From: a virus
IMG/VR virus record: IMGVR_UViG_3300042541_001125
Span: 1-35,989 of that record
Reading direction: 5' to 3' (one strand)
Length of the DNA stretch: 35,989 nt
Numbering within the stretch: the first letter of the stretch is position 1; each line of letters begins with the position of its first letter. The notes under the pieces were generated by a model that was given only the letters and a program-made list of their open reading frames with translations, had not been told where the DNA came from and did not search any database. The position numbers and the translations under genes are program-made. Of the stretch, positions 14,844 to 19,262 are shown one piece after another.

Positions 14844-15836
14844 TTAAAATGGAAATTGAATCCCTTTGTCAGGGTCGTTAATAATTCTTTCTGGTTCATT
14901 CTCTCTAACCCCTGCTTCGTAAAAACTTGCTACTGGAGGATATTTTGGTATTGGAAGTTCTACTGGTGCTTGATAACTTGTTTTAGGGTGCTTAATGCAA
15001 TCTATACCTCCACACTTAAATCCGTTTGCAGAATTGTAATTAAACATTATTGGTTTTTCAAGCATTGTTTGACCTCCACCATCATCCGTATCTTTAACTT
15101 TTTTAATTTCTACAAGTGTTTCAAACTTCATTGTTTCACTACCGATAAGTCTGTGAATTATAATAAAATCATCTGCTTTATTTGAAAATGCTTTACCACC
15201 TTCAATATCATCTTTAAATGGAGGTGTAATATGTCCAGCCCATGTATGTCCTTGTGGATATACAGCTTGTCTACGTCCACTTGCTGTACTTGGGTGAGCA
15301 TTTATGTATATCGTAGCATTAGTAGTCTTACAAAACATTTTTAAATCATTTAAAACATCGTAATTACTAGAATATGATAAAGCTGTCTTTAATCCGTTGA
15401 AAGGGTCGATTAAGTAAGCATCCGTTTTACTTGTTTTAAACACCTCTAATAATTCCTCTGGAGTATATCGTTTAAGATTATCTACAAACTTAAAATGGTG
15501 TTCAATTTTCATTATACCTACTTGTAATTCAGAATTTGTAAGTTCAGTTATCTTTCTTCCGAAATACATTCTAATTAAATCTCTCATTGCTTTTTGTGCT
15601 GAATTTTCATCCATAAACAAAGTAAATGTAAGATTGTGATTAGTTGCTAGTGCAAGAAAATACCATAACATCCAGTAAGATTTACCTACGTTATCATGTC
15701 CAAGTATAAAATTTAATTGACCTCTTTTAAATCTTAAATAATCATCTAAGTAAATACCCAATCCAATCCCTTGTGGTATTTTACCGTCTCTGTAGTCAAA
15801 TAGGTATTTAGTACTATGTCCGTCTTTTAAAATCAT
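14844..15836 (-). CDS. RecA/DnaB-fold replicative helicase or ATPase
   Basis: A 330-residue single-domain P-loop ATPase. Walker A is GHDNVGKS (46-53), Walker B AYLIDPFN (140-147), and TIYINAHPS matches the strand and sensor motif of DnaB-type helicases. ADDFIIIHR follows as the next core strand. An N-terminal primase domain is absent. The end (PKYPPVASFY and PDKGIQFPF) is disordered-looking. It would unwind the fork or act in replisome assembly. Its start overlaps the initiator stop by four bases, so both are made together. Confidence 0.85.
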   Translation of the reverse strand: MILKDGHSTKYLFDYRDGKIPQGIGLGIYLDDYLRFKRGQLNFILGHDNVGKSYWMLWYFLALATNHNLTFTLFMDENSAQKAMRDLIRMYFGRKITELTNSELQVGIMKIEHHFKFVDNLKRYTPEELLEVFKTSKTDAYLIDPFNGLKTALSYSSNYDVLNDLKMFCKTTNATIYINAHPSTASGRRQAVYPQGHTWAGHITPPFKDDIEGGKAFSNKADDFIIIHRLIGSETMKFETLVEIKKVKDTDDGGGQTMLEKPIMFNYNSANGFKCGGIDCIKHPKTSYQAPVELPIPKYPPVASFYEAGVRENEPERIINDPDKGIQFPF

Positions 15837-16585
15837 AATTTCCCCATTTGTTTGTAAACACTATAAACATATTGGTCTGTTACAACTTCACCATCTGCTG
15901 TTGTGCCTAAAACATTAGATTGATTATTGCTTTGCTGTACAGATACGTTTGTCATCCAAGAAGATTCAAAACCACCCCAACTTTTTTCAACGCATTTTTC
16001 TAATACTAAATTTTTATCTAGTCCAGTAAGTTCAACTTGCTTTATAAATTTATTTAATGCAGTTTCGGTATTAGTTAATCTTTTTGACTTACGAACTTTT
16101 AACCATTCAGAAACTAAATTAGAATCAAAACCTAAAGACAAAAGAGATTTTTTAAAATCGAACGACGAAGGAGTATATATCTCTTCTTTTCTTTTCTCTT
16201 CTGTATTACTATCGTAATTCTGTCGTAATACGGTTGTATTACTATCGTTATTCGTTCCTAATACTATCGTATTACGTTTTGACCACCTCTTTTCTACTGA
16301 TTCTCTGGCTTTTACAGATTTTTCTAAGGCATTTTCAAACTGTTCATCTAAGAAATATATTTTTATAAAACCACCAACTTCTTTAATCACTTTTTTAGAT
16401 AAAAGATTTTTATAATTGTCTTCATCACATTCAATAATTGCATCTTCAATAGAAAGTTTAGTTTCATTTATCCAGTACAAACAACATAATTCCATAAATG
16501 AAGATTTAGCTTCTGGAGTACATTTTTGAATTTTTCCCATCTTCCATTCCGAAATAGAGAATTTAAACCATTGCATCTTTTCCAT
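15833..16585 (-). CDS. Replication initiator / helicase-loader-like protein
   Basis: A 250-residue protein. The N-terminal 100 residues (WFKFSISEWKMGKIQKCTPE) form a winged-helix-like region seen in phage replisome organisers. A hydrophilic linker (about 105-140) carries NDSNT-type repeats. The C-terminal domain has LVSEWLKVRKSKRLTNTETA and KCVEKSWGGFESSWM, a pattern of DnaT/DnaD-like loaders. Its linker DNA holds three 13-bp repeats, which could be the origin (16208-16275). It sits just upstream of the helicase gene, the usual order. Confidence 0.8.
   Translation of the reverse strand: MEKMQWFKFSISEWKMGKIQKCTPEAKSSFMELCCLYWINETKLSIEDAIIECDEDNYKNLLSKKVIKEVGGFIKIYFLDEQFENALEKSVKARESVEKRWSKRNTIVLGTNNDSNTTVLRQNYDSNTEEKRKEEIYTPSSFDFKKSLLSLGFDSNLVSEWLKVRKSKRLTNTETALNKFIKQVELTGLDKNLVLEKCVEKSWGGFESSWMTNVSVQQSNNQSNVLGTTADGEVVTDQYVYSVYKQMGKL
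16208..16275 (+). repeat. Three iteron-like repeats inside the initiator gene
   Basis: ACTATCGTAATTC (16208-16220), ACTATCGTTATTC (16241-16253) and ACTATCGTATTAC (16263-16275) share an eight-base exact core and a similar end; the first two are also preceded by TGTATT. Distances between starts are 33 and 22 bases, close to whole helix turns. Many phages carry their origin as iterons in the initiator gene. Confidence 0.7.
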
Positions 16586-16587
16586 AA

Positions 16588-16788
16588 CTAATCTAATAAA
16601 GCAATTTGTTTACGAAGTTCTTTAGATAGCTTAATAGCCGTGAACTTATCTAGTATTACACCACAAGTTTCGTGTTCTTCATCAAAATCATCATGATTAA
16701 CTATTACGATTTCAATTCTTTGATTGTTTGCTTCTATTTCAATAAAATCTTTTGAAATTAATGAGCATTTAAATTTTAAACTTACCAT
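16588..16788 (-). CDS. Small acidic protein, first gene of the replication operon
   Basis: A 66-residue protein: two or three beta strands (SLKFKCSLISKDFIEIEAN, then RIEIVIVNHDDFDEEHETCG) followed by a helix TAIKLSKELRKQIALL. There is no promoter element between its ATG and the terminator-like structure at 16837-16882, so its expression should depend on read-through. No family is recognised. Confidence 0.6.
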   Translation of the reverse strand: MVSLKFKCSLISKDFIEIEANNQRIEIVIVNHDDFDEEHETCGVILDKFTAIKLSKELRKQIALLD

Positions 16789-16830
16789 AATACAATAAAG
16801 GTTTTTAGATTACCAGTAACTTTTAGTTAA

Positions 16831-16922
16831 ATAAAAAAGCCAAGCTAACGAAGGTGCGTGAGAAAACCTTGTTGCTTGACTTTGTGTTATAAAAAATGTT
16901 TTTCGGAGTTTCTCACGCTTCG
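16831..16922 (-). ncRNA. Putative structured small RNA or regulated terminator (pseudoknot-like)
   Basis: Two helices cross each other. Helix A: CGAAGCGTGAGAAA (16922-16909) pairs with TTTCTCACGC (16865-16856) and, after a 3-base bulge, TTCG (16852-16849). Helix B: AAGTCAAGC (16882-16874) pairs with GCTTGGCTT (16845-16837), with one wobble. The order A5', B5', A3', B3' is that of an H-type pseudoknot, and TTTTTT follows B (16838-16833). A TATATTTG element at 16929-16936 would start the RNA close to the first base of A. It may be an independent RNA of about 90 bases or a switchable terminator ahead of the replication operon. Confidence 0.55.
16837..16882 (-). terminator. Terminator part of the structured element
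   Basis: AAGTCAAGC (16882-16874) and GCTTGGCTT (16845-16837) form a 9-bp stem with one wobble around a 28-base loop that can form an inner AAGGT/ACCTT stem. A run of six T and then ATTT follow on the minus strand. If formed, it would separate the methyltransferase operon from the replication operon. Confidence 0.65.
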
Positions 16923-16928
16923 ATGGTA

Positions 16929-16936
16929 CAAATATA
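16929..16936 (-). promoter_or_regulatory. TATATTTG promoter element of the structured RNA
   Basis: A TAnnTTTG match whose expected start point is within a few bases of the first base of helix A. No TTG box is found 17-23 bases upstream, so its strength is unsure. Confidence 0.45.
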
Positions 16937-16941
16937 GTAAA

Positions 16942-17049
16942 TTATTTAATTCCTATATCTTTTTTTAATTTTTCTTCTTTTAAAATTCGTTGCATTCCAT
17001 AACAGCCTTCTAAGATTGAGTTTGCTCTTTGTGTAAGTGATATTATCAT
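16942..17049 (-). CDS. Very small protein (35 aa) after the HNH gene
   Basis: A complete frame from ATG 17049. The product MIISLTQRANSILEGCYGMQ ends RILKEEKLKKDIGIK: a helix with one Cys and a basic tail. The frame stays open upstream without another ATG. It lies 20 bases after the HNH stop and ends just before the TATATTTG element. No family is recognised. Confidence 0.5.
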   Translation of the reverse strand: MIISLTQRANSILEGCYGMQRILKEEKLKKDIGIK

Positions 17050-17068
17050 TCCTTCTATTTCATTCTCG

Positions 17069-17596
17069 TCATATATTTTTTATTTTTAATAATTCTGCTC
17101 TATATAAATAAGCCCCCTTTAATTCACAATCATAACATCCTAAATGAATATTTTTATCATTTATTCTTATTGATACTTTCCATTTGTTAGATGACTTACA
17201 CCAACTTACTCCAGTATATTTAGAAGTTTTATTTTTTTTGTCTTTACTTGAATTTTCACGTTGTGTGATAATTTGTAAATTTTCAACTCTATTATCAGGC
17301 GGGTTGCAATTTATATGGTCTACAACTAATTTACATTCATTTGGATTATGATTCAAAAATGCCATTGCAACTAATTTGTGAACTCTTAAAATTTTAGATT
17401 TTTTTTCTTTATAAAGTATTACAAAATAATATCCATGTAAATCTTTATATGGTTTTAAATTTTTTTCTTTTGAATTGAAAAATCCATAACCATTCCACAT
17501 TTTCCTAGATAATGACTTAATATTACCTAAACTACTTACTTGATACAATCCTTCATAATTAGGTATGTCTTTCCAGATTTCGTGTCCGTTTACCAT
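17069..17596 (-). CDS. Free-standing HNH homing endonuclease (NUMOD4-HNH-AP2)
   Basis: A 175-residue protein with three modules. NUMOD4: EIWKDIPNYEGLYQVSSLG (about 6-24) and NIKSLSR. HNH: VHKLVAMAF (His73), VVDHINCNPPDNRVENLQII (92-111; Asp93, His94, Asn102, Asn106). AP2-like DNA-binding end: SKYTGVSWCKSSNKWKVSIR (126-144 and on). This is the standard layout of phage homing nucleases, which nick or cut DNA at a target site. Its ATG overlaps the methyltransferase stop (TAATG). It is more likely a selfish element than a restriction partner. Confidence 0.88.
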   Translation of the reverse strand: MVNGHEIWKDIPNYEGLYQVSSLGNIKSLSRKMWNGYGFFNSKEKNLKPYKDLHGYYFVILYKEKKSKILRVHKLVAMAFLNHNPNECKLVVDHINCNPPDNRVENLQIITQRENSSKDKKNKTSKYTGVSWCKSSNKWKVSIRINDKNIHLGCYDCELKGAYLYRAELLKIKNI

Positions 17597-18636
17597 TATT
17601 TTTTATTTATAAATGAGAAAATGTGTTCAATTACAGGAAGTGTCCAACCATCACCAAGTAAACTACCAGCTTTTGATTTAGATAATATACTTGTGTATCC
17701 ATCTGGGAAACCTTGTAATCTCTCCATTTCTGTTTGGTTAACTGTTCTTACTATTCCATCTTTGTAGGAATATAAGTTATTGTTTGACTCTATTAAACAA
17801 GGGCTTTTACCTTTTGTTACTCTTCCTCGTCTTGTAGTTGATGTAGGAAAAGATAGATCCAAGCAGTCATTTTCGGTTAAAATATCAAATCCTTTAGATG
17901 TATTTGTTTTAACTCTTAATTCGTTGTTTTCATAATAAACTAAATTTGGAGTCTGTTTCCCTTTATCAATTCTATTTTTTAAATAAATATCTTCTTTTAT
18001 TGGACATTTTACCATTTGTTTATAGTCTCCTTGCAACAAACAATTTGCTTTATCTCTATCCGTGTAACCATCAGTCAATATATCTTTAAACATTATACCT
18101 CTATCTTTAGGCTGTGGTATGTCAGTCACTAAATCAAACATAGTTTCTTTTGTTCTTATGTTACTCCAATAGTATCTATCGCGTAATTGTGCTACAACTA
18201 ACTTTGAATTAATACGCACAGGATAAACACCTAATTCACGACTCATAATACCTACATCTAATTTACTTGCACTACCTACATTTTCTTGAAAAAATAATAC
18301 GTTTGGATTTAGTGATTTAATATGGTTTAATATGTCTACAAATGTAAAAAACAAACTAGACTTCTTACCATTTATTCCAGCACGTTTACCTGCTGCAGAT
18401 AAATCTTGGCAAGGTGATCCACTTAATATCAAATCAATGCTTTTCCAATCAATATCCCATTCTTTCCATTTAGTTACATCACCAACTTGTATAGTGTCAG
18501 AGAAGTGATGCTGTGTTAATTCTATTGCGTACGGCTTTATTTCACTTGAATAGTATTTATTTACTTTTATTCCGACATTTTCTAAGGCTTGTCTACCTGT
18601 GTTCATCCCGTTAAAAAGTGATATAACATTTATCAT
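17596..18636 (-). CDS. DNA (cytosine-5) methyltransferase
   Basis: A 346-residue enzyme that transfers a methyl group from S-adenosylmethionine to cytosine in DNA. Motif I ISLFNGMNTGRQAL (5-18), IV SGSPCQDLSAAG (72-83, catalytic Cys76), VI FFQENVGS (115-122), VIII AQLRDRYYWS (149-158) and a final LLGDGWTLPVIEHIF (motif X) are all present. FNGMNTG and the overall order resemble the Dnmt3-like group found in phages. I chose ATG 18636 because it forms an ATGA overlap with the gene before; a longer frame begins at TTG. It probably protects phage DNA from host restriction. Confidence 0.93.
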   Translation of the reverse strand: MINVISLFNGMNTGRQALENVGIKVNKYYSSEIKPYAIELTQHHFSDTIQVGDVTKWKEWDIDWKSIDLILSGSPCQDLSAAGKRAGINGKKSSLFFTFVDILNHIKSLNPNVLFFQENVGSASKLDVGIMSRELGVYPVRINSKLVVAQLRDRYYWSNIRTKETMFDLVTDIPQPKDRGIMFKDILTDGYTDRDKANCLLQGDYKQMVKCPIKEDIYLKNRIDKGKQTPNLVYYENNELRVKTNTSKGFDILTENDCLDLSFPTSTTRRGRVTKGKSPCLIESNNNLYSYKDGIVRTVNQTEMERLQGFPDGYTSILSKSKAGSLLGDGWTLPVIEHIFSFINKK

Positions 18637-18849: not shown

Positions 18850-19233
18850 CTATAAAGGATAAAATAGTTCACATTCACATTCTACTTTTGCTGTACATCC
18901 GCCACAACAGTCTGACATTCTTTTAGTGCATAAATGAGTTGTATCGTCTTCATAATACCCTTTACCATCACAAGTAGTACATGCGTTTTCTTCTTTGAAG
19001 CTAACAAACTGCATTAAATCTTCTGTTTCAAAACAATATCCATTATCAAACCATTCATCATCCTCTTGCTCAATAGGACACCATTCAGTACCATACACAC
19101 AAAACTTACGTGAAATACCTCTCCAATTAATCTGTAATTCTGATTGATTTAAGAAAGTAAATACAACTTCACTTTCATCTATGTAATCAGGCTTATAACC
19201 TAATACATAACTCATTAATTTTTCTTTTTCCAT
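18850..19233 (-). CDS. Cysteine-rich zinc-binding protein
   Basis: A 127-residue protein from ATG 19233; the frame extends up to a TTG in the promoter element, which cannot be used. The N-terminal part is hydrophilic and beta-rich (YIDESEVVFTFLNQSELQIN). The C-terminal part has CTTCDGKGYYE (DnaJ-type zinc knuckle) followed by LCTKRMSDCCGGCTAKVECE, in all nine cysteines in about 40 residues. It is the first gene after the promoter at 19255. It may bind RNA, DNA or a host protein; unknown. Confidence 0.7.
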   Translation of the reverse strand: MEKEKLMSYVLGYKPDYIDESEVVFTFLNQSELQINWRGISRKFCVYGTEWCPIEQEDDEWFDNGYCFETEDLMQFVSFKEENACTTCDGKGYYEDDTTHLCTKRMSDCCGGCTAKVECECELFYPL

Positions 19234-19254
19234 TGCCAAATGTTTTAGTTTCTG

Positions 19255-19262
19255 CAAATATA
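19255..19262 (-). promoter_or_regulatory. TATATTTG promoter of the methyltransferase operon
   Basis: A TAnnTTTG match 21 bases before the ATG at 19233 and directly after the late-operon terminator. No TTG box is at the expected distance. Position strongly suggests a promoter, sequence only partly. Confidence 0.5.

Follow-up and report, generated by a model that had tools for sequence, protein, structure and literature searches.

A candidate leader RNA of phage replication operons in which a 5' hairpin loop is predicted to pair with the loop of the terminator

Results

The replication locus and the architecture of the element

The window studied here, which is the whole 35,989-nucleotide stretch of the viral record IMGVR_UViG_3300042541_001125, carries a replication operon on its minus strand. 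The first gene of this operon (16588 to 16788) encodes a 66-aa protein with a predicted beta4-alpha fold and is followed by the genes of an O-like replication initiator (15833 to 16585; PHROG 6451/678) and of a replicative helicase (14844 to 15836; PHROG 18375/239). The first gene starts 44 nt past the U-tract of the element described below; a 35-aa ORF, an HNH endonuclease gene and a C5 cytosine methyltransferase gene are located upstream of the element.

The initial annotation had placed two crossing helices, a promoter-like box and a U-tract at this position, and read-back of the minus strand bore out all of their coordinates to the base. The order on this strand is TATATTTG, a hairpin (H1), an A/U-rich linker, a terminator of the form AAAGUCAAGCAACAAGG[UUUUCUCACGCA]CCUUCGUUAGCUUGGCUUU and UUUUUU. 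The TATATTTG box (16929 to 16936) is a promoter -7 element of the Bacteroidota TAnnTTTG type. H1, CGAAG[CGUGAGAAA]CUCCG (16904 to 16922), has one A-C mismatch in its stem in the window copy, which alone is weak (+0.5 kcal/mol), while most relatives of the type A defined below have a perfect GAAG/CUUC stem. The terminator hairpin H2 (16836 to 16883) consists of a 5' arm (16883 to 16867), a loop (16866 to 16855) and a 3' arm (16854 to 16836) and ends in the U-tract TTTTTT (16833 to 16838). Its apical loop contains UUUCUCACGC (16856 to 16865), the exact complement of GCGUGAGAAA (16909 to 16918) in the first hairpin; both kissing strands were identified by read-back and by the covariation presented below.

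Helix 1 is formed by CGAAGCGTGAGAAA (16922 to 16909) and TTTCTCACGC-ACC-TTCG (16865 to 16849), which pair over 10 bp and, past a bulge of 3 nt, over another 4 bp, and helix 2 by AAGTCAAGC (16882 to 16874) and GCTTGGCTT (16845 to 16837), followed by TTTTTT. The 9-bp helix reported initially is thus present but is longer than was claimed, its stem continuing up to GG/CC around a 12-nt loop, so that the 3' strand of helix 1 sits inside the terminator loop. A hairpin of its own, GAAG[...]CUUC, presents the 5' strand of helix 1 as its loop in most relatives, so that what is conserved is a loop-loop (kissing) helix of 7-8 bp. The 14-bp helix exists in the window as described, but we rejected its extension as a conserved feature, since the CGAAG:CUUCG extension is absent in several backbones, such as CCUAUU and CCAAUU. 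On sequence comparison, the 10 bp of the window and its extra CGAAG:CUUCG are lineage-specific extensions of the 7-8-bp kissing core.

Covariation of the kissing helix in two sequence types

Relatives were collected from IMG/VR with exact and degenerate patterns and with protein searches, which gave about 150 viral loci. The pattern for the first sequence type, type A, names the promoter and the first hairpin only (TATATTTG N2-9 GAAGC N4-9 ACTYC N AAA). It returned 66 instances, 65 of them long enough, and a perfect complement of the first 7 loop bases was located 30-95 nt downstream in 61 of these 65, compared with 0.6 on average for scrambled heptamers. The remaining four instances had neither a complement nor a recognisable element. 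The type A helix is 7 bp long and all seven positions are Watson-Crick in 21/21 distinct loop pairs, with three or four pair types at each of positions 3, 4, 5 and 7. Positions 3-7 gave 105 paired cells out of 105, whereas the maximum in 5000 permutations was 78.

The second type, type B (GUUC[GCUCUCACACUAUA]GAAC ... ACCC...GGGGU), has its architecture in common with type A, but not its sequence. In a structure-blind MAFFT alignment of type B elements (n=31), the pairing between two sets of eight columns reaches 98.4% and ends at the helix ends; 62 cells are double changes. The covariation score was 0.709 versus 0.194 for shuffles and at most 0.163 when the strands were slid by 1-3 columns; because the type B members were gathered by a detector of complementary loops this test is partly circular, whereas the type A test is not. 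Many type B elements had first been spotted by eye upstream of the helicase, with no complementarity filter. The linker is A-rich in both types, and both arms of the terminator stems change together between backbones. Compensatory changes among relatives, the absence of which would have counted against the element according to the initial annotation, are abundant in both helices. The covariation in types A and B indicates that the loop-loop helix is real, with a core of 7-8 bp, and on these comparative grounds we take the kissing helix as proven in two sequence-unrelated types. The first suggestion of a knotted small RNA with its own promoter-like box and terminator is supported.

The terminator stem of type B contains a conserved asymmetric internal loop (AAUGA on one side, GGAU or GAAA on the other) with a kink-turn-like look (e.g. 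L015:3648-3739 and L077:3010-3103), which could bend the hairpin back toward H1. A hammerhead-like reading of type B (UGAUGAG...GAAA) was rejected, as the motif is not kept across the type.

Distribution across phages

We then used a detector combining the promoter, H1, the loop-loop match and the terminator, with a score cut-off of at least 34. It gave 177 matches across all loci and none in dinucleotide shuffles; as the loci overlap in part, the matches represent 103 distinct elements. Among 69 contigs with enough upstream sequence that were chosen solely for a related helicase gene, 65 carried the element upstream of the helicase, at a median distance of 1.0 kb. Two others of this set (L055 and L057) have an element that was recognised by eye and has a short T-run, and a copy about 3.2 kb upstream of the helicase was found in L067 with an RNA model. 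Six cultured phages also carry the element (Polaribacter phage P12002L, Flavobacterium phages FCL-2, 11b, morran9-1 and elemoA, and Cellulophaga phage phi13:2); in each of them it immediately precedes the gene of the replication initiator or the small gene in front of that gene. No element was detected in Panino (first 30 kb), P12024S, RAP44 or 6H. To judge from these sequences, the element is near-universal in this phage group and lies between a promoter and the replication genes.

There is usually one copy per phage. A role as a switch between early operons, suggested initially, is not what the comparison points to; it suggests instead the 5' leader of one operon. A second element was present in eight independent records, several of the second copies leading HNH endonuclease genes. 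Element copies directly lead NUMOD4-type HNH endonuclease-like genes in L017, L051, L105, L111, L127 and L151, as if the leader travelled with, or were captured by, homing endonucleases.

When 84,980 species genomes were scanned with a pattern, 26 matches were obtained, of which only L160 and L170 were real. These two contigs had been assigned to a Bacteroidetes and a Campylobacterales MAG, respectively, and the ORFs that follow their elements resemble those of the phage loci; they are probably phage contigs, L170 being mis-binned. The RNA model R1 gave no match in 296 Flavobacteriales genomes, searched with a lossy first pass. Both searches suggest that the RNA is not host-encoded, and we rejected a host origin.

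Promoter and predicted transcript

Flavobacterium promoters have a -7 element of consensus TAHHTTTG, the G of which is at -5 (PMC6847099). From the position of the box, this predicts a +1 at A16924 of the minus strand, two bases ahead of H1, and, together with the terminator, a terminated RNA of 93 nt (16924 to 16832). Among the 103 distinct elements, the predicted transcript has H1 starting at a median of +1 and is about 92 nt long when terminated; the median distance from the U-tract to the first ATG is 22 nt. The box of the element is the sole TAnnTTTG on either strand of 16500-17700, in agreement with the original view that the downstream operon has no recognisable promoter of its own. A second TAnnTTTG between the terminator and the start codon was found in 0/103 elements, promoters being recognised by the -7 box alone, so that a phage-specific promoter past the terminator would escape detection. 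The terminator separates the operon from the sole recognisable promoter and often lies 10-20 nt ahead of the start codon, which implies, on the sequence, that the operon would be reached by read-through. A promoter-agnostic search (score of at least 36) gave 41 matches versus 4 in shuffles, and a TAnnTTTG was directly upstream in 31 of the 41 and in none of the 4.

Positions 19369-19279 of the minus strand of the window comprise another TATATTTG and, within about 90 nt of it, a terminator-like hairpin and a T-run, just ahead of an ORF (18850 to 19257). This arrangement, which has no convincing loop-loop match, is conserved in L004, L012, L014 and L024 and is perhaps a second kind of leader.

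Folding of the growing transcript

Growing transcripts were folded as nested structures only, with elements that the detector had preselected for loop complementarity. The minimum free energy fold contained the loop-loop helix in 102/103 elements once its second strand was out, and still in 100/103 just before the outer 3' strand of the terminator emerged. The full-length fold was the terminator in 100/103, and the median energy went from about -15 before to -21 kcal/mol after this change. The change-over in the window occurs between 88 and 92 nt, when the polymerase is at the U-tract. In this model the energy profile is that of a kinetic attenuator. The folding order predicted for about 100 of the 103 elements is in line with the initial suggestion of a helix 1 in competition with the terminator, a possibility in this nested model, and the kissing may also coexist with the terminator. 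The linkers are short, the 7-8-bp kissing core being flanked by a 5' linker of 2-3 nt and by one 3' base. In known kissing dimers both stems are closed while the loops kiss. Such a short-linker core could likewise coexist with both stems closed, and the kissing fold might then leave the terminator entirely unhindered, or even reinforce it, instead of opposing it.

Discussion

A proposed transcription attenuator ahead of the replication genes

The element is, on the sequence evidence, the 5' leader of a phage replication operon, in which an intrinsic terminator, located just ahead of the first start codon, is paired through its apical loop with the loop of a 5'-end hairpin. We infer its function, and consider it reasonably probable, and the most likely of the mechanisms weighed here, that the leader is a transcription attenuator that decides whether the replication genes are expressed. 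As the RNA polymerase advances, the H1 loop would capture the terminator-loop sequence upon its emergence, and this capture would hold or delay the terminator, so that the two folds are proposed to compete over a few nucleotides of transcription. If the loop-loop fold persisted, the polymerase would escape into the replication operon; if the terminator closed in time, an RNA of about 93 nt would be released. The balance might be set by a phage protein, by the speed of transcription or by the released RNA itself.

Diversity of the kissing sequences and a possible role in trans

The 103 elements contain 49 different kissing sequences, extensions being counted apart. Comparison of near-identical backbones (1-2 differences in about 60 nt) showed that the helix differs by two base pairs in several cases, the pairs compared not being independent, and the kissing sequences differ in 8/8 of the independent records with two elements. 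This suggests selection for non-matching loops. We tentatively raise, with limited credence, the idea of a class of regulatory RNA new to phages, in which the kissing pair of a 5' hairpin and a terminator loop would control entry into replication and a diversified 7-8-bp code would block cross-control among co-resident elements or co-infecting phages, as a phage counterpart of plasmid incompatibility.

It is rather unlikely that the released RNA of about 93 nt is the main product, an abundant, knotted and stable molecule acting in trans, and that the operon is expressed by leaky read-through. The kissing loops could bring such an RNA into contact with the leaders of sister genomes or of superinfecting ones, in a manner resembling plasmid copy control, or the RNA could bind a protein. 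Its own promoter and strong terminator speak for it, and the number of kissing sequences, their two-bp changes in near-identical backbones and their differences within records all fit a pressure against cross-talk. However, the loops are predicted to be satisfied intramolecularly, and the diversity can also come from drift with compensation; the comparisons between backbones are not independent.

Comparison with known RNAs and other readings

The first reading of the window had not recognised the element as a described RNA, and a search of the whole window against Rfam 15 likewise gave no family at or above the gathering cut-off. Yfr10 (RF02362), with which the element shares an AAACUCC motif and a 3' terminator hairpin, scored 26.4 bits against a cut-off of 43; among 20 related records, 3 gave a match with E<=1 and none exceeded the cut-off. 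As unrelated control genomes also give matches, we rejected Yfr10 as a chance resemblance, as we did a MIR156-type match on the plus strand. In the open-access literature we found no account of a leader in which the 5' hairpin kisses the loop of the terminator that follows it, and these RNAs are apparently a large, undescribed class of phage leaders.

The closest mechanism is that of plasmid pT181, where a leader terminator of the replication gene repC is controlled by the kissing of hairpins (PMC3753616). The leader terminator ahead of a replication gene and the kissing hairpins are common to both, but the partner in pT181 is a separate antisense RNA, whereas both loops of the phage leader are in the same RNA and one of them is the terminator loop. 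A promoter for an antisense RNA was searched for as TAnnTTTG only, and none was present on the plus strand of 16500-17700. Type III toxin-antitoxin systems (ToxIN) consist of a promoter, a pseudoknotted RNA, a terminator and a gene reached by read-through, with an antitoxin made of a repeat array and an endoribonuclease as the toxin. The order of the features is alike in the phage leader, which differs in being usually single copy, with no repeat array and no toxin; it is followed by the genes of the 66-aa protein, which has no Pfam match, of the initiator and of the helicase.

The put RNAs of phage HK022 and the LoaP dual-hairpin leader have two hairpins near the 5' end of the transcript, which influence later terminators; the put RNAs let the RNA polymerase pass distant terminators with no need of a phage protein. 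The phage leader resembles them in this placement but differs in that its second hairpin is a terminator, the loop of which pairs with the first. A put-like or LoaP-like processive antitermination, in which the RNA would modify the RNA polymerase or bring in an antiterminator and the elongation complex would then ignore the present and later terminators, would agree with the placement of two hairpins right at the 5' end of the phage operon transcript and with the A-rich linker of types A and B. We nevertheless hold it improbable, given that the second hairpin, with its U-tract, makes up a complete terminator of its own and that most of the sequence is not conserved between the two types.

A passive role has a similarly low probability. 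Here a fixed partial terminator would lower expression of the operon, and the kissing fold would merely protect the 5' end of the mRNA or shape the terminator; the geometry permits both hairpins to be closed, and 5'-terminal structure can stabilise an mRNA. This role, however, needs no perfectly kept loop-loop match in nearly every phage and leaves the diversification unexplained. The chance occurrence of two complementary stretches, favoured by an AT-rich genome and by the modest z-score of the nested minimum free energy of the element region folded as a single sequence (-2.26), is refuted by the compensatory changes in types A and B; the absence of matches in the shuffles and the presence of the element in 65/69 helicase-selected phages also speak against it, and we consider it extremely improbable.

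A strongly covarying and apparently unannotated RNA thus precedes the replication genes in nearly every phage of a large aquatic group and in phages of Flavobacterium, Polaribacter and Cellulophaga. To our knowledge, little is known of the timing of early and replication genes in Bacteroidota phages, and the attenuator proposed here would be a short, testable control point in culturable phages. If it is true that the kissing code limits cross-talk, these leaders would in addition offer a naturally occurring set of orthogonal RNA regulators.

First genes of the operon

The gene of the 66-aa protein is one of a family of first genes seen in many loci (34 aligned; ...LDKxTAIKLSKELRKQIALLD), although this member had no Pfam or PHROG match above threshold. 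Its model is a beta4-alpha fold (pLDDT 84, pTM 0.65). Among the best structural neighbours were MRP1/2 and, with a Z of about 5-7, PUR, PC4 and Whirly proteins, the PUR-alpha repeats giving a Z of 7.2 (rmsd 1.7, 56 aligned); values of Z below 8 may merely mirror a common fold arrangement. These four are nucleic-acid binders, but unrelated proteins such as KhtT were also among the best neighbours. A role in binding the leader or ssDNA is a lead from modelling, not a result. This family may be related to another set of first genes, MIYKF...YHLIGALHLLHKEM. Two conserved short 5'-UTR modules, of the AAAAGUUACUGGUAAUCUAAAAACCUUUAU and AACUUUUGUUUGUUUUUAUAAAACAUUCACAAAUU types, are located between the terminator and the start codon in different phages (e.g. 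16832-16789 of the minus strand of the window) and go with the small first-gene family.
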